Shown here one piece after another: positions 7,087 through 25,757 of a DNA stretch of 27,875 nt (positions are counted from its first letter, which is position 1; every line of letters starts with the position of its first letter). The notes below the pieces were generated by a model, which worked only from the letters and a program-made list of their open reading frames with translations, had not been told where the DNA came from and did no database searches. The position numbers and the translations under genes are program-made. Location of the stretch: positions 1-27,875 of IMG/VR virus record IMGVR_UViG_3300037193_001895. One strand, written 5' to 3'. Source of the DNA: a virus.

Positions 7087-7316
7087 ACTGGATCTACGCC
7101 GAAATGGTCCAGCGCCTCCCCGTCCGGGAGAACGAAACACCCGACCGAGCCCGCAAGCGGTTCGACGGGCAACTCGGCGTGCGCAACTGGGCCACCCCCG
7201 GCACCGAACTCAAAGCACCCGACCCCACCCGCGACCCGAAAGCGCCCTGGTGGTGGGACGGCGCTGAAGACGCATCCCAGACCTTCCTCAAGTCCATGGG
7301 GGTGAACCTCGCATGA
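6963..7316 (+). CDS. Tail assembly chaperone, -1 frameshift extension (gpT-like)
   Basis: A second reading frame, -1 relative to the short chaperone, stays open through the Ser/Pro-rich tail of that gene. It encodes PYRAVLGLVHWASEPGTWHELDGRAAAAGFDPGDLPADRFLNWIYAEMVQR, which looks like a real conserved domain, and ends ...WWWDGAEDASQTFLKSMGVNLA. In lambda and most siphophages the equivalent gpG-gpGT product is made by programmed -1 slippage. The likely slip zone is around 6955-6968; the CCCT within CGC CCT ACC (6961-6969) would let a proline tRNA re-pair, but no textbook heptamer is visible. The start given is the approximate slip point, not an initiation codon. The stop overlaps the tape measure ATG. 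Confidence 0.75.
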   Translation, partial: PYRAVLGLVHWASEPGTWHELDGRAAAAGFDPGDLPADRFLNWIYAEMVQRLPVRENETPDRARKRFDGQLGVRNWATPGTELKAPDPTRDPKAPWWWDGAEDASQTFLKSMGVNLA

Positions 7317-10300
7317 GCACCCCCGCAGGCGACGGCAACCTCGTCGGCGACGCAACCATCCGCGTCGACGGCGACACCGACCCGGCAACACGGGCCCTCG
7401 CCCAGTTCTCCCGCGACGCCCAAGGCCGCATCCGCGACGTACGAGGCCGGTTCGTTTCCGAATCCGCCCTCATCAACCGCACGATCACCAACAACACGCC
7501 CACCCTCACCGTCAACACGGCCCCCGCCACAACCGCGATCAACAACTTCACCCGCGACGCCAACGGCCGACTCCGCGACGTCAACGGCCGCTTCGTCCGC
7601 ACCGGCGACAACATCACCCGCAGCCTTACAACGGCGGCCGGCGGCGGCGACCGGTTCAGCTTCAGCCTCCGCGGACTCGCCAACGCGGCCCGCAGCGCGG
7701 CCGGGATCCTCGGCCGCGTGGGTATCGGCGTCGGCGCAATCGGCGCGGCAGCCGGCACCGCAGCGCCACTGCTGGCCGGGATCGTCACCACCCTGGAGAA
7801 CATCGCGCCAGCCGGGGCAGTAGCGGTCACCGGCATGCTGGCCATCACGCAGGCTCAGGCGGCGATCCGGCTCGGCATGGTCGGCGTGGAGGATGCGGTC
7901 ACTGCCGCATTCGACACATCCGAGGCCAGGGCGAAGAAGTTCGACGAGGCCCTGAAGAAACTCGCCCCGAACGCCCGCGCCTTCGCCGTACAGGTCAAGG
8001 AACTCCAGCCCGCCTTCCAACGCTTCCAGCAGGGCGTGCAGAACCAGCTGTTCGCCGGGTTCGCAGACGAACTCCAGCGCCTGTCCACTTCCGTGCTGCC
8101 GATCGCCCGAAAGAACCTCAACGACACGGCCGCATCCCTCAACCGCATGGCCCTCGGCGCCGGAGCCGCCGCCCGCGGACTCGCCACCAGCGGCACCCTC
8201 GGCCAGGCGATGGCCGGCGCCAACAAGGGCCTGTCCAACCTGCAGAAGATCCCCGGACAGGTTGTCACCGCGCTGGGGCAGCTGGCAGCAGCTGGCGCGC
8301 CCGCGTTCGACCGGCTGACGGCCGGGGCAGCCGGCTTCGCCACGAGCATCAGCGAGAAGCTGAGCAGGGCGTTCGAGTCGGGCGCGCTGACGGTGGCGGT
8401 GGATACCGCGGTCGGCGTGCTGAAGGATCTGGGCTCCGTCGCGGCCAACGTCTTCGGGATCCTGGGCAACGTCATGCGCCCGGTGCAGGCTGCGGGCGGC
8501 GGCCTGGTCGGGACCCTGAAGGAGATCACTGGAGTCCTGCGGGATGCCACAGCCACGGAGGGATTCCAGGCCGCGATCTCGGCTGTGTCCCAGACAGTGG
8601 CGACCCTGGCCCGTACGGCGGGGCCGCTGCTCGGGCAGGCCCTTGCTGCCATAGGCCCTGTTCTGACGGCCCTCGCCGGGCCCGCGCAAACGCTGATCCA
8701 GTCCTTGGGGGCAGGGCTGTCGCCGATCATTCAGGGGCTCGGGCCGGTTCTGCAGTCGGCAGCCGAGGCGGTCGGCGTACTCGTCGAGGCTGCGGCCCCT
8801 CTGCTGCCTGTGGTCGGGCAACTCGCGGCGAGTCTGCTGCCTGCACTGATCCCGATCCTCGACGCCGCAAAGACCGTTTTCGCCGCACTTGCCCCCGTTG
8901 TCCAGACACTGAGCCAGACCCTGCAGGCCACCCTCGCGCCGATCCTCGCCCAACTGCCCGCCATCATCGGCCCGCTCGCGGACATGCTCGCCGGGCAACT
9001 CGTCATGGGGATCCAACTCCTCGGCGACCTCCTCGTCCAACTCGCCCCGTCTTTCGTCAGCCTGGGTCAGTCGGTCGCTCAACTCCTCGTTGCTGCCGCT
9101 CCGCTGATCAGCATCATCGCCGGGATCACCACCCAGCTGATGGGTGCGTTGCTGCCCGCCATCCAGCCGATCATCAACGTGATCGCCACCCTCGCCGCCG
9201 CGCTCGCCGGGCAGCTCGCCTCCACCCTGACCAATCTCGTCGTGCCCGCCCTCCGACTGATCACCGATCTACTGCGCGGCGACTTCTCCGCAGCCTGGAC
9301 CTCCCTGAAAGCGCTGGTCAGCGGCGCCGTCGCCCACTTCACCGGCACCTTCTCCCGCATCGGGTCGATCGTCAGCTCGATCGTCGGCGGCATCGTCGAC
9401 CGCTTCAAATGGCTCTACAACATCCTCATCGGCAACAGCATCATCCCCGACCTGATCACCGGGATCATCGGCTGGTTCACCCGCCTGCCCGGCATGGCGT
9501 TCTCCGCCCTCGCCTCCCTCGTTGGCGGCCTCGCACGCATCGCCACCAGCGCCCTCAGCGGCTTCCGTTCCGCCATCGTCGCCGGCGCGAACGCAGCCGT
9601 CGGGTTTGCGCGAGGCATCCCTGGGCGCATCCGCGCCGCCATGAGCGCCCTCGGCGGGTTCCTCTCCGGCATCGCCCGCAGCGCCCTCGCCGCGTTCCTC
9701 GCCGCCGTACGCGCCGGGGCCAGCAGCGCGATCGGCTTCGTCCGCAGCATCCCCGGCCGCATCCGAGGCGCGCTCGGCGGTATCGGAAGCCTGCTCGCCG
9801 GGGCTGGCGCCGACCTGATGCGCGGCATGATCGGCGGCATCCAGAGCATGGCCGGGTCCCTGGCATCGACCGCGAAGAACGTCGTCGGGGGCGCCGTCAG
9901 CGCAGCCAAGAGCGCGCTGGGCATCTCCTCACCGTCGAAGGTGTTCGCCGCGATCGGCCGCGACACCGGACGCGGCTTCATCATCGGCCTGACCGGAACC
10001 CGCGACAAGATCCGCCGGACCACCGAGTCAATCGCTGCTGCGATCACGAAGGCCTTCCGCGGGCGGAACAGCCGCGTCGACGACCGGCTCGTGTCCATGC
10101 TGGAACGCGGCAACACGCGACTGCAGAAGCTCGCCGCTGAACGCGACCGCATCGCGGACCGTTTGAAGAAAGCGCAGGAGTTCGCGTCGCAGACCACGCA
10201 GTCCGCCCTCAGCTTTGCTGCCCTGGGTGGCGGACTCGGCGGCGAGGGCCCCACCCTCCAGTCCGTCCAAGGCGACCTACAAGCCCGGCTGAAGCAGATC

Positions 10301-11005
10301 CGCTCCTTCACCGCCAACATCAAGAAGCTCGCCGGGCTCGGCCTGCGTAAAGACCTCCTGCAGCAGATCATCGAACTCGGCCCCGAGCAGGGAGCCGCCT
10401 ACGCATCCGCGCTCTCCCAGGGCGGCAAAGCGGGCATCAAGGAAATCAACAAGATCCAGGGCCAGATCGCCGGAGCCGCCAAGAGCCTCGGCCGGATCGG
10501 CGCGGACCGGCTCTTCGACTCCGGGAAGAACGCAGGCAAGGGCTTCTTGGAGGGGCTGAAAGGCCAGCAGAAGTCCATCGAGCGACTGATGCTGAACATC
10601 GCTCGGGGCATGCAGAAAGCGATCCGCCGAGCACTCGGCATCAAGTCCCCGTCAACCGTGATGGCACAAGTCGGACGACAGACGCTACTCGGACTCCAGG
10701 CAGGCATCGCCCGCACCGCCCCCCTCGCCGCCCAGGCCATGGCCCGCGCCGCAGACGCCGTCGCAAACGCAGCACCCACCACACTGCCGTTCACCGCAGA
10801 CCGCATGCGGGCACCGGACCTCAGCGTCAACGCCACGCGCACCACCGCGGCCGGCGCGCCCGTCACCATCGTCAACCACTACCACCTGCGCAACGAAGGC
10901 GTCATCGGCTCGCAGATCGAACTCGACGCATGGGTCACGCGCACTCTTGACCGCCTCGCCCAGCAGCGCCGACTGCCCGCCTCCCTGCGAAGGGCAGTCG
11001 CCTGA
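7313..11005 (+). CDS. Tape measure protein
   Basis: At 1230 residues this is the largest protein in the window. It sets tail length and lies inside the tail tube. It is Ala/Gly/Leu-rich and largely helical, with hydrophobic stretches around residues 140-190 and 680-860. Near the N-terminus a 15-residue motif of the form RDA.GR.RDV.GRFV occurs twice (residues 34-48 and 81-95). In the C-terminal third an ALGI.SPS.V segment occurs twice (around residues 868 and 1106), each after a helical Gly/Ala region, a recurring feature of tape measure proteins. No peptidase motif is evident. By the usual ~0.15 nm per residue the tail would be about 185 nm. Start and stop overlap the neighbouring genes (ATGA, TGATG). 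Confidence 0.95.
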   Translation: MSTPAGDGNLVGDATIRVDGDTDPATRALAQFSRDAQGRIRDVRGRFVSESALINRTITNNTPTLTVNTAPATTAINNFTRDANGRLRDVNGRFVRTGDNITRSLTTAAGGGDRFSFSLRGLANAARSAAGILGRVGIGVGAIGAAAGTAAPLLAGIVTTLENIAPAGAVAVTGMLAITQAQAAIRLGMVGVEDAVTAAFDTSEARAKKFDEALKKLAPNARAFAVQVKELQPAFQRFQQGVQNQLFAGFADELQRLSTSVLPIARKNLNDTAASLNRMALGAGAAARGLATSGTLGQAMAGANKGLSNLQKIPGQVVTALGQLAAAGAPAFDRLTAGAAGFATSISEKLSRAFESGALTVAVDTAVGVLKDLGSVAANVFGILGNVMRPVQAAGGGLVGTLKEITGVLRDATATEGFQAAISAVSQTVATLARTAGPLLGQALAAIGPVLTALAGPAQTLIQSLGAGLSPIIQGLGPVLQSAAEAVGVLVEAAAPLLPVVGQLAASLLPALIPILDAAKTVFAALAPVVQTLSQTLQATLAPILAQLPAIIGPLADMLAGQLVMGIQLLGDLLVQLAPSFVSLGQSVAQLLVAAAPLISIIAGITTQLMGALLPAIQPIINVIATLAAALAGQLASTLTNLVVPALRLITDLLRGDFSAAWTSLKALVSGAVAHFTGTFSRIGSIVSSIVGGIVDRFKWLYNILIGNSIIPDLITGIIGWFTRLPGMAFSALASLVGGLARIATSALSGFRSAIVAGANAAVGFARGIPGRIRAAMSALGGFLSGIARSALAAFLAAVRAGASSAIGFVRSIPGRIRGALGGIGSLLAGAGADLMRGMIGGIQSMAGSLASTAKNVVGGAVSAAKSALGISSPSKVFAAIGRDTGRGFIIGLTGTRDKIRRTTESIAAAITKAFRGRNSRVDDRLVSMLERGNTRLQKLAAERDRIADRLKKAQEFASQTTQSALSFAALGGGLGGEGPTLQSVQGDLQARLKQIRSFTANIKKLAGLGLRKDLLQQIIELGPEQGAAYASALSQGGKAGIKEINKIQGQIAGAAKSLGRIGADRLFDSGKNAGKGFLEGLKGQQKSIERLMLNIARGMQKAIRRALGIKSPSTVMAQVGRQTLLGLQAGIARTAPLAAQAMARAADAVANAAPTTLPFTADRMRAPDLSVNATRTTAAGAPVTIVNHYHLRNEGVIGSQIELDAWVTRTLDRLAQQRRLPASLRRAVA

Positions 11006-12345
11006 TGCCACTCACCGAAACCCTCACCGACGACTTCACCGCCACCACCGTCGACACCGCCAAATGGCCCAACAACTACGGCGCACCGGCACCCGACCAA
11101 CCAGCCGGTCGCGCCCGCGTAGTCGCCGACACAAGCTTCGCCGCATACGCCAGCGACACCGTGTACACCCTGCAGGGCTCGCACGTGCACGTCCAAGTGT
11201 TCCCGGCAGCAGCCGGCGGGGCAGCGGAGGCATACACGCAGTTGCTGGTGCTCTCCAGCGCGCCGGGCAACGTCATCGTCTTCGAGATCGACACCGCCTC
11301 CAACACCGTCCTCATGGCCACGAGAGTCGGGGGATTCGACCAGAGCTCACAGACCCTCGGATACGACCCGGACGCACACGCGTGGCTCCGCATCCGCGAA
11401 ACCTCCGACACCGTGTACTGGGAGACCTCCCCCGAGGGGCGCACGTGGACGATCCGTCACTCCACCACATCCCCGTCGTGGGTGTCGGATACCGACATCC
11501 ACATCCAGCTCCTCGCTCACCGCAACGCGGGCACCGTCGACTTCGCCGAGTTCGACAACGTCAACATCACCCCGGCCCTCACCGACGGCTACACCGTCGC
11601 CGTCGACTGGGCAGGCGACGGCAGCTTCGACAGCCCCCACGACGACGTAACAGAAAATGTTCTTGCCCGCGGCCCCGTCGTCTTCGAATTCGGGCGTGAC
11701 GCCGCCCGCGCCCTGTCACCCCCACGCGTCGGACAGCTCACCACCACCCTGTGCAACGCGGACCGCATCTTCTCCCCAGAGAACCCTGACAGCCCCATCA
11801 GCAGTGACATCGAACCGGGCGCCGAGATGAAAGTCGACGTCGTCATCGACAACGTCCTCTACCCGCTGATGCGCCCCCGCATCAACACCTTCCAGGTCAA
11901 CACCGACCGCGGCGACCGCTCCGCCACCATCACCGCCCTCGACGGCCTCGCCCTCCTGCAAGGCACCAAAATCAGCACCGACCTGTACGCCGCGCAGCGC
12001 ACAGGCACCCTCATCGGGATCCTCCTCGACACCATCGGCTGGACCAGGCCCCGAGACCTCGACCTCGGCGCCACGCACGTGCCCTGGTGGTGGGCCAACG
12101 AACAGGACGCCTTCGACCTTCTCACCGACCTCCTGCGCTCCGAAGGCCCCCCGTCGATCGCCTACATCGCACCCGACGGAACGTTCGTCTTCCGCGACCG
12201 CCACCACCGGCTCCTGCGGGCCGCATCCCTGACCAGCCAGGCAACATTCGCCAGCGAACCCACCAGCCTCGAATGCTGCGACATCACCGGATTCGGCGAC
12301 GGCGGCTTCGGCGAATGCGGATTCGGAGGAGGACCCCCCTCATGA
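11005..12345 (+). CDS. Minor tail protein / tail hub, N-terminal part
   Basis: This 446-residue protein follows the tape measure by TGATG overlap. Residues ~8-190 look like a beta-sandwich of the LamG/concanavalin type (DDFTATTVDTAKWPNNYG; later SDTVYWETSPEGRTWTIRH; VDFAEFDNVNITPA). From ~195 the tail-hub signature begins: DGYTVAVDWAGDGSFDSPHDDVTENVL, then LCNADRIFSPENPDSPISSDIEPG, RPRINTF and a domain ending in PSIAYIAPDGTFVFRDRHHRLLR. The protein ends in a Gly/Phe-rich tail (FGDGGFGECGFGGGPPS). In related actinophages this kind of sequence usually continues in one chain into the material found here as the separate gene at 12974. The next ATG overlaps the stop. Confidence 0.8.
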   Translation: MPLTETLTDDFTATTVDTAKWPNNYGAPAPDQPAGRARVVADTSFAAYASDTVYTLQGSHVHVQVFPAAAGGAAEAYTQLLVLSSAPGNVIVFEIDTASNTVLMATRVGGFDQSSQTLGYDPDAHAWLRIRETSDTVYWETSPEGRTWTIRHSTTSPSWVSDTDIHIQLLAHRNAGTVDFAEFDNVNITPALTDGYTVAVDWAGDGSFDSPHDDVTENVLARGPVVFEFGRDAARALSPPRVGQLTTTLCNADRIFSPENPDSPISSDIEPGAEMKVDVVIDNVLYPLMRPRINTFQVNTDRGDRSATITALDGLALLQGTKISTDLYAAQRTGTLIGILLDTIGWTRPRDLDLGATHVPWWWANEQDAFDLLTDLLRSEGPPSIAYIAPDGTFVFRDRHHRLLRAASLTSQATFASEPTSLECCDITGFGDGGFGECGFGGGPPS

Positions 12346-12959
12346 CCTACACACCCATCCCCGCCGGAACCACCCAGTGGGACGTCCCACTCAACGCCGC
12401 CCTGCAGGATTTGCAGGACCAGATCGAAGCACCCGCACTCTTCACCCCCGACGACCACAACCTGCTGTCCTGGACGATGGACCCGGCCATCGCCGCAGGC
12501 GGCACAGCCTTGACGTCAGGCGTCCTACACCTGATCAAGATGAAACTCCCCGAGGACAGCTCGGTCACCAACGTCATCACCTGCGTGACCAGCGGAGGCG
12601 TCACCCTGACAAGCAACCAGAACTTCGCCGCCCTCTACACATCATCCGGCACCCTGGTCGCCATCACCGCAGACCAGTCAGCATCCTGGACCGGCGCCGG
12701 AGCCAAGACCATGGCACTGGCCGGAGGCCCCTACAGCCTCAGCGCCGGAACCTACTACGGGGCACTCCTCGCCAACGGCGCCACCCCACCATCCTTCCTA
12801 CGCGGCCACGGCGTCTCCACCTCCACCCTGAACATCGGTCTCACCGCAGCCACCGGCCGCGCCCTGACCTCCGGTGCCGGCCTGACCACCCCGCCCGCGT
12901 CGGTCACACTCGCCTCCGCGAGTTTCGACTTCAAAGCCTGGTGGTTCGCCCTCTCCTAG
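12342..12959 (+). CDS. Small tail structural protein inserted between the hub halves
   Basis: This 205-residue protein is encoded at an ATGA overlap with the preceding hub gene. Its N-terminus, TTQWDVPLNAALQDLQDQIE, is the 'W...lN.al..l..qi' peptide that begins many small actinophage tail or fibre proteins. A beta-rich, Ser/Thr/Gly-rich domain follows (LIKMKLPEDSSVTNVITCV, LYTSSGTLVAITADQSASW, YSLSAGTYYGALLANG, SFDFKAWWFALS), compatible with a jelly-roll or lectin-like receptor-binding fold. Its exact role is unknown; surface exposure at the tail tip is likely from position. It appears to be a unit inserted between two parts of one ancestral hub protein. Confidence 0.65.
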   Translation: MTYTPIPAGTTQWDVPLNAALQDLQDQIEAPALFTPDDHNLLSWTMDPAIAAGGTALTSGVLHLIKMKLPEDSSVTNVITCVTSGGVTLTSNQNFAALYTSSGTLVAITADQSASWTGAGAKTMALAGGPYSLSAGTYYGALLANGATPPSFLRGHGVSTSTLNIGLTAATGRALTSGAGLTTPPASVTLASASFDFKAWWFALS

Positions 12960-12973
12960 AAAGGCCGCTGGCT

Positions 12974-13858
12974 GTGGCGTTCGACTACATCGCCCCGTTC
13001 ACCTACGAGATCGGCTGGCGCGACATCGTCAACGACGTCTCTTTCGACGTCGAAGAACGCGCTCCCGCGGGCGAACTGTCTGTGGTGTGGGAGTCCGACG
13101 ACACCCTCTCCCTCACCCTCGGCGAGTCCGTCCAAGTCCACGTCCAGGCAAGCGATCCGTTCATGGACGCCCAGGATCTGCAGACCGGAACGGACATCAT
13201 CACCACCGGTGCAGGAACACCCATCGTCACGCTGTCGCGCCGCTCCGGGCAGAACACCACCATCACCATCACCGCCGCCGGCGCGGCCCTGACCGTCACC
13301 CACCTGCAAGTGCGGGCCTTGTCCGTGCCGGTGACGCGTACCGTGCAAGTAACGGCGGACGACTCGACGTCGATCTCCCGGCACGGCTTGCGCTCCTACC
13401 CGGACGATGCTCCTTATGCGGGCCGGCACGACGCGTTCGCCATCACTCAGCTGCTGCTCGCCCGGTACGCGGAACGCCGTCCGACGGTGGAACTGCATCT
13501 GGTGTCCTGCGACACCGCACACCATGTGCAGGAGGTGACACGGACGATCTCGGATCTGATCACGATCCGCAACGGCGAGCTCGGCCTTTACGGCGACTTC
13601 TACATCGAGTGGTTGCAGCACACGCTGACGCGGATGCCTGCGCAAGGGGAGGTGTGTCCGGGCCCCGTGCATTACGCGGTGCTGGGGTGTGAGACGTCGG
13701 GGATCACGGTGCCCGCGAACCCGTTCACGTTCGACAAGGTGGGTGCCGGATTCGACGACGGCGTGTTCGACCCGACGGCAGCGGACAACCCGTCCTCGGT
13801 GTTCATCTTCGATCATCCGACGCAGGGCCAGTTCGATGTGGGGAAGTTCGCCACCTGA
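12974..13858 (+). CDS. Minor tail protein / tail hub, C-terminal part
   Basis: This 294-residue protein starts at GTG 12974, with Shine-Dalgarno AGAAAGG at 12958-12964. It opens with APFTYEIGWRDIVNDVSFDVEERAPA, then SVVWESDDTLSLTLGESVQVHVQASDPFMDA, RRSGQNTTITI, LRSYPDDAPYAGRHDAFAITQLLL and FYIEWLQHTLT. In other actinophages this order is the second half of a single long hub protein (WRDIVN...VEER, then ASDPFLDA, then SGQS, then YPDDAP). No signal or membrane segment is present. The start codon and ribosome site show that it is made as its own polypeptide here, so the two halves would need to assemble in trans. It ends just before the second copy of the leaderless promoter element. Confidence 0.8.
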   Translation: MAFDYIAPFTYEIGWRDIVNDVSFDVEERAPAGELSVVWESDDTLSLTLGESVQVHVQASDPFMDAQDLQTGTDIITTGAGTPIVTLSRRSGQNTTITITAAGAALTVTHLQVRALSVPVTRTVQVTADDSTSISRHGLRSYPDDAPYAGRHDAFAITQLLLARYAERRPTVELHLVSCDTAHHVQEVTRTISDLITIRNGELGLYGDFYIEWLQHTLTRMPAQGEVCPGPVHYAVLGCETSGITVPANPFTFDKVGAGFDDGVFDPTAADNPSSVFIFDHPTQGQFDVGKFAT

Positions 13859-13860
13859 CC

Positions 13861-13904
13861 CCGCCCGGAATGATCATGCGGGTGGGGTGCCTACCGTCCC
13901 CACC
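13861..13904 (+). promoter_or_regulatory. Leaderless-type promoter element, copy 2
   Basis: This 44-base segment is nearly identical to 6587-6630. It has the same GGAATGATCATG block with the ATGATCAT palindrome, a diverged 11-base middle, and CCTACCGTCCCCACC directly before the ATG. The TACCGT box again ends seven bases from the start codon. No Shine-Dalgarno is visible. Confidence 0.6.
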
Positions 13905-14243
13905 ATGGCCCACCTGATCACCACCCGCGCCCGAGCCAGGGTCAACTACGGCAGATGGATCGCCGACTGCCCCCGCGCGCACTGCGCCAACGCCATGCGC
14001 CTGGAACCCAGGCAGGCAACGTTCCACTGCGGCGGCGAGGGCGGCTGCCAGATGGTCGCCCCGGTCGAGTGGCCCGCTGACGCCGACGGCATCTGGGAGG
14101 CCCTGCTGGAACGGCCGGTGCCGGGCACGCGGCACTGGTATCCGAGCGGCCACCCGGAGGCCGTCAAGTTGTCGATCCCGCACGGTCAGAGCGTCGCCGA
14201 GTTGCGTGACGAAACCCGCGACCACGAAAGCGAGATGGTCTAA
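13905..14243 (+). CDS. Small Cys-containing protein of unknown function
   Basis: This 112-residue soluble protein is driven by the second leaderless element. It has an N-terminal basic stretch (TTRARARVNYGRWIADCPRAHCANAMRL) and a second Cys cluster, FHCGGEGGCQM. The C..C....C....C spacing suggests a small zinc-ribbon domain spanning residues ~22-49. The rest (WEALLERPVPGTRHWYPSGHPEAVKLSIPHGQSVAELRDE) is unassigned. Its start has the ATG seven bases after a -10-like box. The next gene's GTG abuts its TAA. Placement within the tail module suggests a virion or assembly role, but nothing in the sequence proves it. Confidence 0.75.
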   Translation: MAHLITTRARARVNYGRWIADCPRAHCANAMRLEPRQATFHCGGEGGCQMVAPVEWPADADGIWEALLERPVPGTRHWYPSGHPEAVKLSIPHGQSVAELRDETRDHESEMV

Positions 14244-14783
14244 GTGGCCTGGACAGCACCCATGACGGCGGTCGCCAACAGCGTCCTCACGGCAGCGCAG
14301 TGGAACCAGCACGTCCGCGACAACCTCAACGAGACCGCCCCCGCCAAGGCCACGCAGGTCTCCAGCCACTTCGTCGGCAACGGCCTCAACAGCATCGTCG
14401 AACGCGTCATGCAAGTCGACAACGTCGGCACCGGCGAAACCACAACCAGCACCAGCTACACCGACCTCGCCACCGTCGGCCCCACCGTCACCCTCAACAC
14501 CGGCACTCGGGCGATCGTCTTCTTCCGCGCCGCCATGGACAACAACACCGCCAACGAGGCGTGCTTCATGGGCTTCGAAGTCTCCGGCGCCTCCTCACTC
14601 GCCGCGTCCGACACCAGCGCCATCAACTTCGACGGGCTCGCCGCGAACTCCCGCAACCGCCTCGGCAGCCCCTACGTGATCACGTCACTGACCGCTGGCT
14701 CCAACACGTTCACCGCCAAATACAAGGTCACCGCCGGAACAGGCACCTTCACCACCCGCCAACTCGCCGTCTTCCCCCTCTGA
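14244..14783 (+). CDS. Small tail or fibre-like structural protein
   Basis: This 179-residue protein begins at a GTG abutting the previous stop (TAAGTG), so translation is probably coupled. The N-terminus, MTAVANSVLTAAQWNQHVRDNLNETAPA, is the widespread 'T...W N.hvRDNL..l.p' anchor peptide of actinophage tail and fibre proteins. A Thr/Ser-rich beta domain follows (TSTSYTDLATVGPTVTLNTGTRAIVFFRAAM, TSLTAGSNTFTAKYKVTAGTGTFTTRQLAVFPL) with the look of a small jelly-roll at a tail tip. It sits directly upstream of the sialidase, which may share the tail tip with it. The specific receptor or partner is unknown. Confidence 0.7.
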   Translation: MAWTAPMTAVANSVLTAAQWNQHVRDNLNETAPAKATQVSSHFVGNGLNSIVERVMQVDNVGTGETTTSTSYTDLATVGPTVTLNTGTRAIVFFRAAMDNNTANEACFMGFEVSGASSLAASDTSAINFDGLAANSRNRLGSPYVITSLTAGSNTFTAKYKVTAGTGTFTTRQLAVFPL

Positions 14784-14796
14784 CCTCGGAGACCCC

Positions 14797-15888
14797 ATGA
14801 CCTGCCCCGCCGCGACCGTCCCCTTCCAAGGCGGCACCGACGGCTACCACACCTACCGCATCCCGGCCCTGACCCTCACCCCGTCCGGCGTCCTGCTGGC
14901 CTTCGCCGAAGGACGCAAGACCAGCGGCGCCGACCACGGCGACATCGACATCGTCCTGCGCCGTTCCACCGATGGCGGCACCACATGGGGGCCGCTGCAG
15001 GTGGTCACCACGCACGGCTCGGACACCGCTGGGAACCCCTGCGTCGTCGTCGACCCCGCAAGCGGAGACGTGGTGCTGGTGTCGTGCCGCAACGGCGGCA
15101 GCGACACCTGGAGCGAGATCGCCGCAGGCGCGGCCCCAGCACGCCGCGTGTACGTGCAGCGGAGCACGGACGACGGCGCATCATGGACCGCCCCAGCCGA
15201 GATCACAAGCCAGGTACGGCCGTCGTGGATGCGCTGGTACGCCACCGGCCCCGGCACTGGCGTCGCTCTCGCGACAGGCCCGTACGCCGGGCGGCTGGTC
15301 ATCCCCTGCAACCACACCCGCACACCATCCGGCTCGGACACCGGAGCCGAGTCGAAATACAGCGGCGGCCACGCCATCTACTCAAGCGACGGCGGCGCGA
15401 CCTGGCAGCTTGGGTTCACCAGCTCCAACCCCAACAACGAGATCAACGAAGACGAGACCGCCGTCGCCCCACTCCCCGACGGCCGCCTGTACTTCAACTG
15501 CCGGTGCGGCACCAGCGACGAACAACCCGGCACCCGCGCCGACGCCGTCAGCCTCGACGGCGCCCAGAGCCTCGTCCGGTCCTACCGCCCCCAGGCCACC
15601 ATCACCACTCCCATCGTCCAAGGATCGGTGATCACCCTTCCGGCCGGGCACCTGCTGTACTCGGGGCCCACCCACCCCTACGAGCGGGCCGCGATGGGCC
15701 TGCGAGTCAGTACGGACGAGGGCCGCACCTGGAGCCTTCGCCGCCGTATCTCCGGGCTGCCGGCCGCGTACTCGTCGATGGTGCTCCTCGATGACACGAC
15801 TTTGGGTCTGCTGTACGAAACGGGCGACTGGTCCCCGTACACGCGGATCGAGCACACGCGCATCCCTCTGGCCGACCTCGGCCTGTGA
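14797..15888 (+). CDS. Exo-sialidase (GH33-type neuraminidase), virion-associated candidate
   Basis: This 363-residue protein is a six-bladed beta-propeller sialidase by motif. It has YRIP at residues 20-23, AEGR at 37-40 and four Asp boxes (STDGGTTW 57-64, STDDGASW 123-130, SSDGGATW 196-203, STDEGRTW 305-312). Candidate catalytic residues are the Arg triad R21, R236 and R297, acid/base D46, the Glu-Tyr pair E220 and Y325, and E341 near the end. The spacings E220-R236 (16) and R297-Y325 (28) equal those of the Micromonospora viridifaciens enzyme (E260-R276 and R342-Y370). Such enzymes release terminal nonulosonic acids from glycans. There is no signal peptide or anchor, and the gene lies between tail-tip and lysis genes, so I infer a tail-borne enzyme acting on a host wall glycan rather than a secreted one. 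Shine-Dalgarno is CGGAG. Confidence 0.9.
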   Translation: MTCPAATVPFQGGTDGYHTYRIPALTLTPSGVLLAFAEGRKTSGADHGDIDIVLRRSTDGGTTWGPLQVVTTHGSDTAGNPCVVVDPASGDVVLVSCRNGGSDTWSEIAAGAAPARRVYVQRSTDDGASWTAPAEITSQVRPSWMRWYATGPGTGVALATGPYAGRLVIPCNHTRTPSGSDTGAESKYSGGHAIYSSDGGATWQLGFTSSNPNNEINEDETAVAPLPDGRLYFNCRCGTSDEQPGTRADAVSLDGAQSLVRSYRPQATITTPIVQGSVITLPAGHLLYSGPTHPYERAAMGLRVSTDEGRTWSLRRRISGLPAAYSSMVLLDDTTLGLLYETGDWSPYTRIEHTRIPLADLGL

Positions 15889-15900
15889 GCAAGGAGCCCG

Positions 15901-16677
15901 ATGATGGCCGAACCCCGCACCCCTGACAGACTGATTGCGATCCTCAAGAAGGAAGGCGTCAAGGTCGCCGAGTACCCCGGCTGGCGCGACCATGAGCGGG
16001 ACGACGAGACGGGCAAGGCTTTCGGCCCGGTGCACCTCGTACTGAACCACCACACCGTCTCGCGGGACTCTCTGCGTATCGTCGCTGAGACCGGATACGC
16101 GGGGCTGCCCGGTCCGCTCGCCCACATCCACCTCGCGAAGTCGGGGCTGGCCACGATGTGCTCAGGCGGTCGGACAAACCATGCCGGCCTGATGGCCCGC
16201 AACGCCTACGAGTCCTTCCGCCGCGAGGAGGCCGTCCACCCGAGGCCCGACGAAGCGTCGGGCACCGTGGACGGCAACGACGTCGCGTACGGCATCGAGG
16301 CCGAGAACCTCGGCGACAACGTCGACGTGTGGCCCCGCGCCCAGTACGACGCTCTGGTGCGGATCAACGCTGCGTTCTGCAGGGAGTACGGATGGAAGGG
16401 CGACTCCTGTGCCGGGCACAAGGAGACGTCAGTGGAGGGCAAAGTAGACCCGCGCGGCCCGGTGGAGGGGTACGGGACACGGGGCCGGTTCGACTTCACG
16501 CTGGGCCAGTTCCGCAAGGACGTCGACGAGCGGCTCGCACACGCGGCCAGCTGGTCACCGGCCACGACGACTACGCCGGCGCCGAAGCCTCCGACTGTTG
16601 AGGAGCGGCTGGCATTGCTGGAGAAGACCGTGAAGGACCAGGGCGTGCGCGTCGCCGCCCTGGAGAAGGGAGCCTGA
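15901..16677 (+). CDS. Endolysin, N-acetylmuramoyl-L-alanine amidase (amidase_2/PGRP fold)
   Basis: This 258-residue lysin cleaves the amide bond between muramic acid and the stem peptide at the end of infection. The zinc amidase domain spans residues ~10-200. HLVLNHHTV supplies the first ligand (H50), NHAGL (residues 93-97) lies mid-domain, YGIEAEN (130-136) is a core strand, and AGHKETSVEGKVDP supplies the other two (H173 and D183). A Thr/Pro linker (~208-218) leads to a C-terminal coiled coil (VEERLALLEKTVKDQGVRVAALEK) rather than a recognised wall-binding domain. No signal peptide is seen, so release depends on the adjacent holin. AAGGAG (15891-15896) serves either of two adjacent ATGs; 15904 has the better spacing. 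Confidence 0.9.
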   Translation: MMAEPRTPDRLIAILKKEGVKVAEYPGWRDHERDDETGKAFGPVHLVLNHHTVSRDSLRIVAETGYAGLPGPLAHIHLAKSGLATMCSGGRTNHAGLMARNAYESFRREEAVHPRPDEASGTVDGNDVAYGIEAENLGDNVDVWPRAQYDALVRINAAFCREYGWKGDSCAGHKETSVEGKVDPRGPVEGYGTRGRFDFTLGQFRKDVDERLAHAASWSPATTTTPAPKPPTVEERLALLEKTVKDQGVRVAALEKGA

Positions 16678-16678
16678 C

Positions 16679-16867
16679 ATGAGGATCTCGAAGTACTGGA
16701 AGGCCGTGGTCGCCGCGCTGGCGGCCGGGGCCGGCACGCTGTCCACCGCCGTCCTCGACGACACCGTCACCGCGGCCGAGGGCTGGGCAGCACTCATCGC
16801 CGTGCTCGGCGCGCTCGGGTTCACGTGGGCCGTCCCCAACAAAACCGTCACGGAGGACGAGGGATGA
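16679..16867 (+). CDS. Holin
   Basis: This 62-residue protein follows the endolysin by one base. It has two predicted membrane segments (about residues 8-26 and 35-52) separated by a short polar turn (LDDTVTAAEG), a basic N-terminus (MRISKYWK) and an acidic, charged C-terminus (NKTVTEDEG). This is the architecture of small class II holins that open the membrane for the endolysin. Its stop overlaps the ATG of the next gene (ATGA at 16864-16867). Identification is by topology and position rather than by a conserved motif. Confidence 0.85.
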   Translation: MRISKYWKAVVAALAAGAGTLSTAVLDDTVTAAEGWAALIAVLGALGFTWAVPNKTVTEDEG

Positions 16868-17148
16868 GCAGCCCACTCGACGGACGTATCCGCAAGCTCG
16901 CCCGCGAGGAGGTCACCGCCCTCCTCGACAGCATCAAGTCCCCGAGCGCCGAGATGGCGGGGGTCGGCAAGCCAGTCCAAGGCGGGGAGCTGCAGCAGCA
17001 GATCACCGACCTGCACGAGCACCTCCACCACGCGGCCACCAGCATCAAGCGGCTGGAGGACCGGATCGACGCGCTGGAGAAGACGAGCAGCGCTACTGCG
17101 GTGCGCCGTGCTACCCGTAAGGCCAGCAGTTCGGAGGGCAGCGCGTGA
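16864..17148 (+). CDS. Small coiled-coil protein after the holin
   Basis: This 94-residue soluble protein has no recognised family. It starts at an ATG overlapping the holin stop and ends overlapping the glycosyltransferase GTG. The N-terminal third (GRIRKLAREEVTALLDSIKSP) is amphipathic. A clear heptad region follows (LQQQITDLHEHLHHAATSIKRLEDRIDALEK), then a basic Ser/Ala/Arg tail. The tight coupling places it in the lysis operon. It could regulate lysis or be a small structural protein; nothing decides between these. Confidence 0.75.
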   Translation: MSSPLDGRIRKLAREEVTALLDSIKSPSAEMAGVGKPVQGGELQQQITDLHEHLHHAATSIKRLEDRIDALEKTSSATAVRRATRKASSSEGSA

Positions 17149-18224
17149 GGGTCGTCGCATACCCGTCAGATCGCTACGGGTGCGGCTCGTTCCGGATCAT
17201 CTGGCCCGGCGAGACGCTCGCCGCAGCTGGCCATGATGTGACCGTGGTCGGGCAGGACAAGCGAGCGGTCCGCCTCGTCATGGAAAACGACGTAGTGAAG
17301 GACGTCCTCGTCGACGACGGCGTGGACGTGGTCGTGATGCAGCGCACCACGCACGCCTACATGGCGCAGGCCGTCGCGGTGATGCGGTCGAAGGGCATCG
17401 CCGTGGTGATCGACGTGGACGACGACCTGTCCTCCATCCACCCCTCGAACCCGGCGTGGGCCACCCACCACCCGGGCAACGAAGGCCGGTTGAAGAACGG
17501 CATGGTGCACCGGCACTCGTGGCGCAACCTCGCCACCGCGTGCCGCGACGCGACGCTGGTGACCGTATCCACGCCGGCGCTGTTGGAGGTGTACGCCCGG
17601 CACGGCCGCGGCCACGTCCTGCCGAACTACTTGCCTGACCACTACTACGGGCTGCCCCGTCAGGACTCCGACATGATCGGCTGGCCGGGCTCGTTCCACT
17701 CCCACCCCAACGACCCCGAGGTCGTGGGTGGAGCGGTCGCACGGCTTGTCGATGAGGGCGCCGATTTCGTGATGCGCGGCGACAGCAACGGCGCTGGCGC
17801 GGCGTTCGGCCTGGCGCAGGATCCGGTGGGTGGGGGTGTGCCGATCGAGGAGTGGCCGGCGGCGGTCGCCGAGTTGGGCATCGGAATCGCCCCGCTGGCG
17901 GACACGAAGTTCAACCGGTCGAAGTCGTGGCTGAAGCCGCTGGAGATGAGCGCGGCGGGCGTGCCGTGGGTGGCGTCGCCGCGCGCCGAGTACGAGCGGC
18001 TGCACGCGATGGGCGCCGGCATCTTGGCGGAACGTCCGCGTAACTGGTACCGGGAGTTGAAGCGGCTGCGGGAATCGCCCGCGATGCGTGCGGACCTGAG
18101 CGACGCCGGCCGCATGGTCGCCGACAGGCTCCGGTTGCGCGGGAATGCGTGGCGGTGGGCTGAGGCATGGGAGAAGGCGTACGAGTTGCAGCAGGCTACG
18201 CCGCGGACACAGGTAGCGGTGTAG
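17145..18224 (+). CDS. GT-B type glycosyltransferase
   Basis: This 359-residue protein is a predicted cytoplasmic glycosyltransferase. It opens MRVVAYPSDRYGCGSFRIIWPGETLAAAGHDVTVV, the 'G.g.yRi..P...L...GH.V' start of GT4-like enzymes. DVVVMQRTTHAYMAQAVAVMRSKGIAVVIDVDDDL and TLVTVSTPALLEVYARHG.....LPNYLP complete the N-terminal Rossmann domain. The C-terminal domain holds IGWPGSFHSHPND, the ELGIGIAPLADTKFN segment and SWLKPLEMSAAGVPWVASPRAEY, where donor sugar-nucleotides bind in this superfamily. Similar genes are frequent in actinophages. Donor and acceptor are unknown; virion proteins, phage DNA or a host wall glycan are all possible. The GTG overlaps the previous stop, and the 3' end overlaps the convergent WhiB gene by 29 bases. 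Confidence 0.8.
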   Translation: MRVVAYPSDRYGCGSFRIIWPGETLAAAGHDVTVVGQDKRAVRLVMENDVVKDVLVDDGVDVVVMQRTTHAYMAQAVAVMRSKGIAVVIDVDDDLSSIHPSNPAWATHHPGNEGRLKNGMVHRHSWRNLATACRDATLVTVSTPALLEVYARHGRGHVLPNYLPDHYYGLPRQDSDMIGWPGSFHSHPNDPEVVGGAVARLVDEGADFVMRGDSNGAGAAFGLAQDPVGGGVPIEEWPAAVAELGIGIAPLADTKFNRSKSWLKPLEMSAAGVPWVASPRAEYERLHAMGAGILAERPRNWYRELKRLRESPAMRADLSDAGRMVADRLRLRGNAWRWAEAWEKAYELQQATPRTQVAV

Positions 18225-18995: not shown

Positions 18996-19292
18996 ATGCC
19001 AGACGACCCGACCCTCGGCGAGGTAGTCCGACGGTTCGACGAGCGGTTCGCGGACGTCCGTGACGACATCGCCCAGATCGGCCGCCGCCTCGACGAGAAG
19101 GTCGACCAACGCATCTACGACCTGCGGCATGAGGCGCTGGCCGGACGCGTGACGACGCTGGAGACGCTACGGGAGAAGGACGCCGAGAAGCTCGTCGCGA
19201 CGAGGCGGTGGCTGATCGGCGCGGTGATCGTGCCGCTGGTCGGCATTCTCCTGCCGGTGGTCCTCCTGCTGTGGCAGGGAGCTGGGACATGA
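18996..19292 (+). CDS. Coiled-coil protein with C-terminal membrane anchor
   Basis: This 98-residue protein has an acidic/basic heptad region (residues 8-70: [26 protein letters not shown]...[16 protein letters not shown]) and a single C-terminal membrane segment (about 73-93: [22 protein letters not shown]). The Shine-Dalgarno is GGAGGGG. The layout resembles small phage proteins near lysis genes (spanin-like or holin-associated) and tail-anchored prophage proteins. It overlaps the collagen-like gene by ATGA, so the two membrane proteins are produced together. The function is unknown. Confidence 0.8.
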
Positions 19293-19936
19293 GTCGGGCA
19301 CAGATCCGCACGGAGGAACGTCGTTGGCGGCGTGGCGACGTGTTCACGGTGGCGGGGGCGCTGCTGCTGGGCGCCGTGCTGGCGTGGATCGTTGTGACCA
19401 TCCAGACCATGGGCCAAGACCTGCATGAGGAGCGGGCCTACAACCGGGCGCTCGCTGCGCAGGTGGTGGAGTTGGGCGGGAAGCCAGTGGAGGGCCCGCC
19501 GGGGTCACGTGGTGAGCCGGGGGCTTCGGTGACGGGTCCGCCTGGCCCTCAGGGTGAGCCCGGTCCTACGGGGCCGCCGGGGCCGTCTGGTTCGCCGGGT
19601 GAGGACGGCGACGACGGCAAGAGCGGGAATGCTGGCGAGACGGGCACTCCTGGAGAGCCAGGCGTTGTGGGGCCGAGTGGCCCGGCTGGTCCTCCGGGGG
19701 CGCAGGGCGAGCCCGGTCCGGCCGGTCCACAGGGTGAGCCGGGTCCTGCTGGCGCTGATGGGGCGGATGGCGCGGATGGGCAGTCGTGCCCGGACGGGTA
19801 TTCGTTGCAGGCCCCAAGCTACGACCCGGATGCTCTGGTGTGCAGGCGGGATGGTGCGCCGGATCCGGATGAGCCGGGGAATGGGAATCCGCAGGCTGCG
19901 GGTGCGTTGGATCCGCAGCGCAGGGTGTACGCGTAG
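19289..19936 (+). CDS. Membrane-anchored collagen-like protein
   Basis: This 215-residue protein has a basic cytoplasmic N-terminus ([11 protein letters not shown]), one membrane segment (about 20-38), a short juxtamembrane helix and a collagen-like region. A first Gly-X-Y block starts at residue 69, with a break at 78-83. Twenty-eight uninterrupted Gly-X-Y triplets follow (residues 83-166), many of the GPP/GEP/GPA type that trimerise without hydroxyproline. Beyond lies a two-cysteine cap (C167 and C185 around [17 protein letters not shown]) and a Pro/Asp/Gly-rich end. Collagen-like proteins are common in phage tail fibres, but those lack membrane anchors; this one should display a trimeric rod from the cell membrane. 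A role in surface modification of the lysogen is an inference. Confidence 0.85.
19535..19786 (+). repeat. Collagen-type Gly-X-Y coding repeat (28 triplets)
   Basis: Every third codon is glycine over 28 consecutive triplets within the collagen-like gene. Codons are varied (GGC, GGT, GGG, GGA), so the DNA is not a simple tandem repeat and the protein pattern is kept by selection. Confidence 0.9.
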
Positions 19937-24152: not shown

Positions 24153-25757
24153 TTACTTCCAGTCGATCTGAATCGACTCCGTGTCGAAGTACACGCCGCC
24201 AGGCAGGCGCCCCCTCCGGGCCGGGTAAACAGTGACCGTCATCAGGAAGTCGATCGCCGCCCGCTTACGCGAGAGGTCCATCCGCTTCCACTCGGCGTCG
24301 ACGTCATCGGCGCCCACGAGACCGGCTACGGGGTTCGCTTCGACAGCGTGCGACAGGATCTCCTCGGCACGCGCTTTTCGTGCCCGAGCCGCGGCGGAGG
24401 CAACCCGCCATTCCTGCAAGTCCATCGTGCCGGCGCCGAGCTCCTGCGCCAGCTGGTCGAGCATCTGCCGCGCCTCACGCATATCCTTCTGCGCGCCCCG
24501 AATGTCGACGGGGTTCTCGCGGGCTGCCAGCAGTTCGACGGCGTCTGGCTGCGACACACGGAGCTTGGCTAGGTTCGCCACGTGCACGTCGAGCGGCTCA
24601 GCCTTCCGCACCACGTGCTTACTCACCCGGCAGTTGTAGGCGGCGAAGTACCGCTTGTCCGCGCGCCGGTTGCTGGTACCGCACCGCATCGTCGATCCGC
24701 ACACCCCACACAGGTACAGACCTGACCCCAGGTACTTCCGCTCATTGCCGGGCGTGGTCCGCCGAGACGGATCATCGAGGAGCGCGGTAAGGCTCCGCCA
24801 CGTCGCCTCATCGAGCGGCGCCGGCCAGTTGCCCGGCCCGGCCTCCTGGCCGCGGTGTACGAGGATCCCAGCGTTGCGGTGGCGCCGCAGCATCCCACCG
24901 ACTTCCGGGCCCTCCCAGGCGCCTCCTGTGCTTGTCAGCACGGGCGGCGTCATGGCGTTCCACTCGTTGGCAATCGAGCGGAGGGACGCGCCAGCGAGGA
25001 CGGAGTCTGCGGACTCACGGATGCGGTGGAACTCGCTGCCCTCGACCACGCTGGCGGCCGTCGCACAGCGCTTGCACTCGGCCCACACATGCCGCGCGTT
25101 CGACACCTTGCAACGGGTGCAGGCCCAGCCGTCGATACCGTCGCCCTTCCCGCACTCCTGGCAGGTGATGACGATGACGAAGTCGTCCGGTTCGTCACGG
25201 CCGCAGCTGAGGCAGATGAGGGAGCGAGGGGTCACGCCGTCGGCCTCCCAGCCGAAGGGCCGCCGCCCGCCGAAGAACTTGCCGTGTTGAGCCATCTCGT
25301 CGCGCTTGCGGCGCTGCCGCTCAATCATCCGCTCGACTTCGTAGCGGGCCTGGACACCGAGCTGGCGGGCGATCATCCGGCCGGTGGCCGTGGTGAGGTC
25401 GAGGTGGCCTGCCTTGACCGTGCGGGTCTGCACGCGCCGCGGCTCGCACACGTCGATGTACTCCTCCAGCTCTGCCGGGGAGCGGTGGAGACGGTCGGTG
25501 TGCCAGGCAAGGACGGTGTCTGCGCGGCCCGCGCGAAGGTCGTCGAGGAGACGCTGATAGCCGGGCCGGGGCTTGCCGCTGTAGGCGGAGAGGTCGTTGT
25601 CGGTGTGGACGGCGACGACCTCGATGCCGAGCTGCTGGGCGAGGGCTTCGCAGTCTTCGCGTTGGCGCTCGACGCCGAGGCCGGCGCCTTCGCGGTCGCG
25701 TCTGATGCCGCAGTAGATGATGGCGCGGGTGGGGATGCCTGGCGGGTTTGTGGGCAT
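24153..25757 (-). CDS. Large serine recombinase (phage integrase), lacking the catalytic serine
   Basis: This 534-residue integrase has the full family layout. The resolvase-type N-terminal domain (~10-150) includes VERQREDCEALA, HTDNDLSAYSGKPRPGYQRLLDDLRAG and LAWHTDRLHR. The recombinase domain (~155-300) has FFGGRRPFGWEADG and VLAGASLRSIANEWN. A canonical zinc ribbon follows (LCGVCGSTMRCG...YNCRVSKH), then a coiled coil (~420-465) and a C-terminal domain ending FDTESIQIDWK. Two oddities stand out. The active-site segment reads IYCGIRRDREG, whereas the family has IYxRxSxD, so the nucleophilic Ser is Arg19 and its Arg is Gly17. Four extra CxxC pairs (182/185, 199/202, 213/216, 228/231) are inserted in the recombinase domain. 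As encoded it should bind DNA but not cleave it. There is no frameshift or premature stop. Confidence 0.92.
   Translation of the reverse strand: MPTNPPGIPTRAIIYCGIRRDREGAGLGVERQREDCEALAQQLGIEVVAVHTDNDLSAYSGKPRPGYQRLLDDLRAGRADTVLAWHTDRLHRSPAELEEYIDVCEPRRVQTRTVKAGHLDLTTATGRMIARQLGVQARYEVERMIERQRRKRDEMAQHGKFFGGRRPFGWEADGVTPRSLICLSCGRDEPDDFVIVITCQECGKGDGIDGWACTRCKVSNARHVWAECKRCATAASVVEGSEFHRIRESADSVLAGASLRSIANEWNAMTPPVLTSTGGAWEGPEVGGMLRRHRNAGILVHRGQEAGPGNWPAPLDEATWRSLTALLDDPSRRTTPGNERKYLGSGLYLCGVCGSTMRCGTSNRRADKRYFAAYNCRVSKHVVRKAEPLDVHVANLAKLRVSQPDAVELLAARENPVDIRGAQKDMREARQMLDQLAQELGAGTMDLQEWRVASAAARARKARAEEILSHAVEANPVAGLVGADDVDAEWKRMDLSRKRAAIDFLMTVTVYPARRGRLPGGVYFDTESIQIDWK

Follow-up and report, generated by a model that had tools for sequence, protein, structure and literature searches.

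A predicted GH33 sialidase occupies a recurrent slot behind the tail genes of Streptomyces phages

Why would an actinophage carry a sialidase gene among its tail genes, and where would such an enzyme act? The question is raised by a 27,875-base virus record in IMG/VR, which is the whole stretch of DNA analyzed here and is called the window below. Its gene content (a major capsid fragment, major tail protein, head-tail adaptor, tape measure, Dit-like and Tal-like proteins, endolysin, glycosyltransferase, collagen-like tail protein, regulator, and large serine integrase) identifies a siphophage, which the integrase indicates is temperate. The features on which the argument draws are the following.

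7313..11005, plus strand: tape measure protein (phrog_305, 1e-98)
11005..12345, plus strand: distal tail (Dit-like) protein, function assigned by position after the tape measure gene (phrog_14065, 6e-55, function not annotated)
12339..12959, plus strand: tail protein of about 206 aa between the Dit-like and Tal-like genes, possible receptor-binding protein (from reading frames; start inferred)
12974..13858, plus strand: Tal-like tail-tip protein, the query used for sister phages (GTG start inferred)
13881..14243, plus strand: conserved small tail-module protein of about 120 aa, with homologs in the same place in most relatives of this tail type (start approximate)
14244..14783, plus strand: small minor tail protein, 179 aa (phrog_7565, 7e-21)
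14797..15888, plus strand: single-domain GH33 sialidase lacking a signal peptide (Pfam, phmmer, alignment, structure model)
15901..16677, plus strand: endolysin, Amidase_2 (N-acetylmuramoyl-L-alanine amidase; Pfam, phrog_880)
16825..17148, plus strand: small protein after the endolysin, conserved in relatives
17145..18224, plus strand: glycosyltransferase (phrog_7162, 1e-31)
24153..25757, minus strand: large serine integrase (Resolvase and Recombinase; phrog_95, 3e-81)

The product of 13881..14243 had no PHROG match. A sequencing frameshift was considered for 11005-13858 and rejected, as the region holds three normal overlapping genes. Past the lysis region, positions 19208-19936 encode a collagen-repeat protein akin to tail fiber proteins. 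The first approximately 1700 positions are AT-rich (45-53% GC versus about 69%); an open reading frame at 727-981 has a weak match (E 0.0019) to PF24758, an F-box/LRR family of plants, and the capsid reading frame at 1650-2252 covers just the final third of phrog_777. These features point to a probable chimeric contig with its junction near 1.65-1.7 kb.

The open reading frame at 14797-15888 encodes 363 amino acids from an ATG start, with zero internal stops. Its product matches the Pfam families BNR_2 (E 2.9e-32) and BNR, and phmmer comparison with the PDB retrieves Streptococcus pneumoniae NanA (E 2.4e-32) and, over residues 12 to 349, the Micromonospora viridifaciens sialidase 1EUR (E 3.5e-31). 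Residues 20 to 25 (YRIPAL) form the RIP motif of GH33, and Asp-box/BNR repeats are matched too. An AlphaFold model built from a 13-sequence alignment (pLDDT 86.8, pTM 0.89) superimposes in VIA-align on NanA over 350 residues (Z 48.2) and on 1EUR over 337 residues (Z 45.9, 2.2 A, 33% identity), and the structure prediction proposed as a check by the initial annotation thus returned a sialidase fold. The matches listed for this protein by structure comparison, Pfam, and phmmer are GH33. GH58 endosialidases do not appear among the 50 structure matches listed, an absence that excludes no similarity. The product is therefore predicted, far beyond chance, to be a complete GH33 sialidase with a six-bladed propeller fold.

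The putative active site comprises seven residues, invariant in the 13-sequence alignment, whose codons were checked in the DNA.

14857-14859, plus strand: R21 codon
14932-14934, plus strand: D46 codon
15454-15456, plus strand: E220 codon
15502-15504, plus strand: R236 codon
15685-15687, plus strand: R297 codon
15769-15771, plus strand: Y325 codon
15817-15819, plus strand: E341 codon

These include the full GH33 set, namely the arginine triad R21/R236/R297, the acid/base aspartate D46, the nucleophilic tyrosine Y325, and its glutamate partner E220. In a profile alignment R21, D46, E220, R236, and Y325 fall on NanA R347, D372, E647, R663, and Y752, while R297 is displaced by a single residue from R721, where that alignment passes through an uncertain loop. 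We take the NanA numbering to be R347/D372/E647/R663/R721/Y752, with which the positions agree at a single offset. The aspartate changed in the Porphyromonas gingivalis D219A structure 8t26 lines up with D46 too. Pfam, phmmer, the model (Z 46-48), and the invariant residues all bear out the initial annotation, which had described a complete GH33 enzyme with every expected catalytic residue.

Many viral attachment proteins have this fold without being sialidases, and paramyxovirus attachment proteins are among the structure matches, so the protein could be imagined as a catalytically dead propeller that serves purely as a lectin-like receptor binder. The invariance of the seven catalytic residues in 13 relatives speaks against this, as does the fact that the phage copies are under purifying selection (pairwise dN/dS 0.17-0.52 among ten phage sialidase copies). 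We consider a dead propeller very improbable.

The sialidase gene starts 13 nt past the stop of the 179-aa tail gene and ends 12 nt before the amidase endolysin gene, on the same strand as both. Its location between tail genes and the endolysin was thus read correctly at the outset, with the phrog_7565 tail gene upstream and Amidase_2 downstream. Gaps this short are too small to hold a separate promoter for the gene. Lysogenic-conversion cargo (a moron) would have its own promoter and terminator apart from the structural operon, an arrangement not found for this gene; it is encoded within the tail gene module, as a tailspike depolymerase would be. No fusion to a tail-attachment domain, as in a tailspike, was found in the 363-aa protein. 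The GH33 domain fills residues 1 to 363 of the predicted model, so the chain has no tail-anchoring domain.

In IMG/VR, nine loci were recovered with a single sialidase query, L117 with the alignment as query, and L051 with a tail-protein query. Some loci are redundant: the modules of L005 and L006 are nearly identical, and the pairs L007/L013 and L010/L012 represent the same Streptomyces graminilatus prophages in two collections. Ten distinct phage or prophage copies remain besides the window (L002, L003, L004, L005, L007, L008, L009, L010, L051, and L117). Seven (L003, L004, L005, L008, L009, L051, and L117) have tail genes homologous to those of the window and keep the order tape measure, Dit, Tal, the 13881..14243 homolog, one or more copies of the 179-aa protein gene, and sialidase. 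In L002 and L010, which share one tail type, and in L007, which has another, most tail genes are not alignable with the window, and the sialidase gene again lies behind the last small tail gene, followed in L002 and L007 by an amidase gene. The slot, past the last small tail gene and before the endolysin where one is recognizable, thus recurs across at least three tail types.

The same position is variable in sister phages. Eighteen sister loci retrieved with the Tal-like query (L084-L101) are without a sialidase. In L091-L094 the gene for the 179-aa protein homolog is followed directly by the endolysin, leaving the slot empty, and in L085, L087, and L089 a 165-aa gene fills it. The sialidase is therefore optional, and because most sister phages are without it, it is not essential; an empty or swapped slot is as expected of an adaptive tail accessory. 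The alternative slot proteins (L085:8387-8881, L087:8387-8881, and L089:8372-8875; 164-167 aa) gave no Pfam or PHROG match. In a tblastn search of 50,697 isolated phage records, 18 matched the sialidase and none of these is an actinophage. This agrees with the earlier view that neuraminidases are rare in phages, and the search for the gene in other actinophage tail modules that had been suggested succeeded for phages and prophages in the form of ten further copies but yielded none in isolated actinophage records.

Two observations concern the glycosyltransferase gene at 17145..18224, which nearly every sister phage shares, irrespective of a sialidase gene. Its product might modify a host wall polymer or virion proteins. 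In L005 (13295-14401) the gene is split by an in-frame insert of about 369 aa that starts CVDSS, contains LAGYFEADG, and ends VSHN before S; these motifs suggest an intein that carries a LAGLIDADG-type endonuclease.

A missing tail anchor and a missing signal peptide fit both carriage in the virion and release at lysis, and lacking a signal peptide, a sialidase that is not part of the particle would leave the cell only at lysis. It might then remain cytoplasmic until late, be freed with the endolysin, and clear debris and adjacent hyphae of receptor glycans, which would keep progeny from being trapped. The gene's place directly before the endolysin gene, at a 12-nt gap, is consistent with such a role. 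It is also directly behind tail genes, however, and the adjoining endolysins differ in type among relatives, whereas the slot is constant. We judge a solely lysis-released enzyme to be somewhat unlikely, though it is a close rival of the reading favored below.

The neighboring 179-aa tail protein offers a possible partner. Its model (pLDDT 90.5) comprises a short N-terminal part and a jelly-roll knob, for which the top Foldseek matches are the BC2L-C and PLTL lectins, the short tail fiber of cyanophage A-1(L), and the needle knobs of HS1 and Sf6 (P22-like). With E values of 3e-5 to 8e-4 and TM scores of about 0.4-0.5, these are moderate fold matches, from which the protein is predicted to be a TNF-like lectin knob, probably trimeric. 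The knob gene occurs in one to seven tandem copies across relatives. L052, L053, and L054 carry about six to seven tandem, diverged copies, as if a set of receptor-binding proteins were being diversified there. In a tree of knob proteins, one supported clade (98/100) contains seven members, six of which adjoin a sialidase. The exception, L050, is without both sialidase and endolysin. Since the sequences are kin, this count is suggestive at most.

What might the enzyme cut? Enzymes of family GH33 usually remove alpha-linked residues in exo fashion. The initial annotation had pointed to a Kdn-containing wall polymer of the host as substrate, and this is plausible from what is reported for streptomycetes: the major wall glycopolymer of Streptomyces coelicolor is a teichulosonic acid of galactose and Kdn with up to seven repeating units (PMC11481543, PMC7831098). 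The nonulosonic acid synthase NeuB (PF03102) is encoded in 279 of 296 sampled Streptomyces genomes (94%). Streptomyces graminilatus, which hosts two sialidase prophages, has a polysialyltransferase-family (PF07388) gene and a GT2 gene no more than about 6 kb from its NeuB gene. An association between phage sialidases and NeuB-positive hosts was set aside as uninformative, because NeuB is nearly universal. Also set aside as support for Kdn was the umbrella-toxin paper (Cell 2025), which describes teichuronic-type polymers (TUA), not Kdn, in Streptomyces griseus and Streptomyces antibioticus and backs wall polymers as recognition targets merely in general.

On an alternating galactose-Kdn polymer an exo-enzyme would trim ends or branches and would not depolymerize the chain, which makes the proposed analogy to capsule depolymerases doubtful. 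Alternatively, the target of an active GH33 enzyme could be not the Kdn of the host wall but Neu5Ac, a sugar of the legionaminic type, or some other glycan in the environment. Its sequence does not tell Kdn from Neu5Ac specificity, and the best structural matches listed are Neu5Ac enzymes; against this, the hosts identified belong to Streptomyces, for which the nonulosonic polymer reported is built on Kdn (PMC11481543). We regard a substrate other than wall Kdn as improbable.

Streptomyces chromosomes also encode relatives of the enzyme. Of 296 genomes sampled from the Streptomyces genus group, 134 (45%) contain homologs (E <= 1e-60), mostly with about 50-56% identity to the window sialidase and an equal domain extent. 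A tree of 47 proteins places 10 phage copies with five chromosomal copies (L011, L014, L015, L020, and L021; support 94/97) apart from 30 other chromosomal copies (97/91). No tail genes were seen around the five, and transfer is therefore possible in either direction. No clear signal peptide was seen in any of the copies examined, whether from phages or from actinobacterial chromosomes. The absence noted in the initial annotation is thus real for the window protein, but its value as an argument is lost: a trait common to the chromosomal relatives is uninformative on virion carriage, and the notion that the phage enzyme is leaderless as a phage adaptation was likewise rejected.

ABC sugar importer genes and a gene for a DHDPS/NanA-superfamily aldolase are found near chromosomal copies, joined in L104 by a gene for a GntR regulator, for which NanR is the closest model. 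None of these scores reaches the NCBI equivalog cut-off, that of the aldolase for NanA included, so nonulosonate catabolism is a putative assignment for these loci. L107, L110, L113, L114, and L104 have such leaderless sialidases beside importers and aldolases, often in two copies per genome, and these neighborhoods suggest a nonulosonate salvage route in Streptomyces. By extension, the phage enzyme might act inside the host, releasing nonulosonic acid from oligosaccharides that the cell imports or recycles and so feeding the cellular aldolase pathway. The nearest cellular family, leaderless and set among such genes, is consistent with such a metabolic or host-takeover role, but the phage copies sit inside a structural, late operon in the same slot, and no importer or aldolase was seen adjoining them. 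This metabolic role seems to us quite unlikely.

The reading we favor, at a probability of roughly 0.45, is that of a late, extracellularly acting exo-nonulosonidase that trims the Kdn wall polymer in partnership with the lectin-like knob. The sialidase would be made along with the tail and lysis genes and, once outside the cell and perhaps attached to the tail, would cut a nonulosonic acid, most likely alpha-linked Kdn, at the ends or branches of the wall polymer. The knob would hold the glycan that the active, receptor-destroying sialidase trims, and this bind-and-release pair may help particles cross the wall to the injection site and avoid sticking to debris. We infer activity, Kdn specificity, lectin function, and tail attachment as parts of this best explanation. 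In its favor are the intact site and fold, the dN/dS values, the short gaps, the recurrent slot and its empty or swapped state in sister phages, the lectin-like neighbor and its clade, NeuB, the Kdn polymer, and the importers and aldolase beside the chromosomal relatives. Counting against it are the lack of a tail-anchoring domain and of a signal peptide, the gene's absence from most sister phages, the aldolase score below the cut-off, the moderate lectin match (TM about 0.5), and the few residues that exo-action on galactose-Kdn repeats would remove.

Most Streptomyces phages have no known wall receptor. A recurrent tail-module sialidase, together with near-universal NeuB, asks whether Kdn teichulosonic acid is a phage receptor or a barrier, and provides a testable lead on how these phages recognize or leave their hosts. 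Phage sialidases may also help to analyze Kdn-type wall polymers. A single-domain GH33 enzyme, found in none of the isolated actinophage records searched, thereby joins the hydrolases of actinophage tail modules.

Sialidase relatives are already known in enterobacterial phages. The Salmonella phage Fels-1 gene STM0929.1n (E 8e-9, 29% identity), which is regarded as nanH, a cargo gene, lies near tail genes but on the opposite strand and near the prophage end. Kuttervirus (Vi01-like) proteins annotated as tailspikes or tail fibers with exo-alpha-sialidase function share a sialidase-like domain (25% identity over 64% of the query), whereas the Streptomyces phage enzyme is a separate single-domain protein. 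In the literature searched we found no direct report of actinophage sialidases, nor of a separate single-domain GH33 enzyme in the tail-endolysin slot of Streptomyces phages across tail types. Coliphage K1 endosialidases (GH58) act on sialic acid polymers and also have a six-bladed propeller fold, but they are trimeric tailspikes that cleave internally and differ from GH33 in CAZy family and catalytic residues. To call them unrelated, as had been done, is too strong, since the propeller is presumably common to both.

Among cellular enzymes, the M. viridifaciens sialidase (1EUR/1EUT) has a like fold and catalytic residues, with about 30-33% identity over the catalytic domain; it is bacterial and secreted, and its long form has extra galactose-binding domains. 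The chromosomal Streptomyces family is closer in its domain extent and missing signal peptide, and differs in its importer and aldolase neighborhoods and its mostly separate clade. Fungal Kdnases (Aspergillus fumigatus 2XCY and Trichophyton rubrum) are GH33 enzymes with E-values on par with other GH33 sialidases but are secreted by fungi. The proposed pairing of a lectin with a receptor-destroying sialidase is alike in logic to influenza HA/NA and other bind-and-cut pairs, an analogy for which no shared ancestry is claimed, and the release role of influenza neuraminidase is the model for an enzyme acting at lysis. It is possible, if doubtful, that a phage counterpart of hemagglutinin and neuraminidase exists here, in which actinophage tails would direct both a lectin knob and, as a second protein, a receptor-destroying exo-sialidase at one Kdn wall polymer, the enzyme gene being kin to the Streptomyces family putatively engaged in nonulosonate catabolism and exchanged as a tail-slot cassette.
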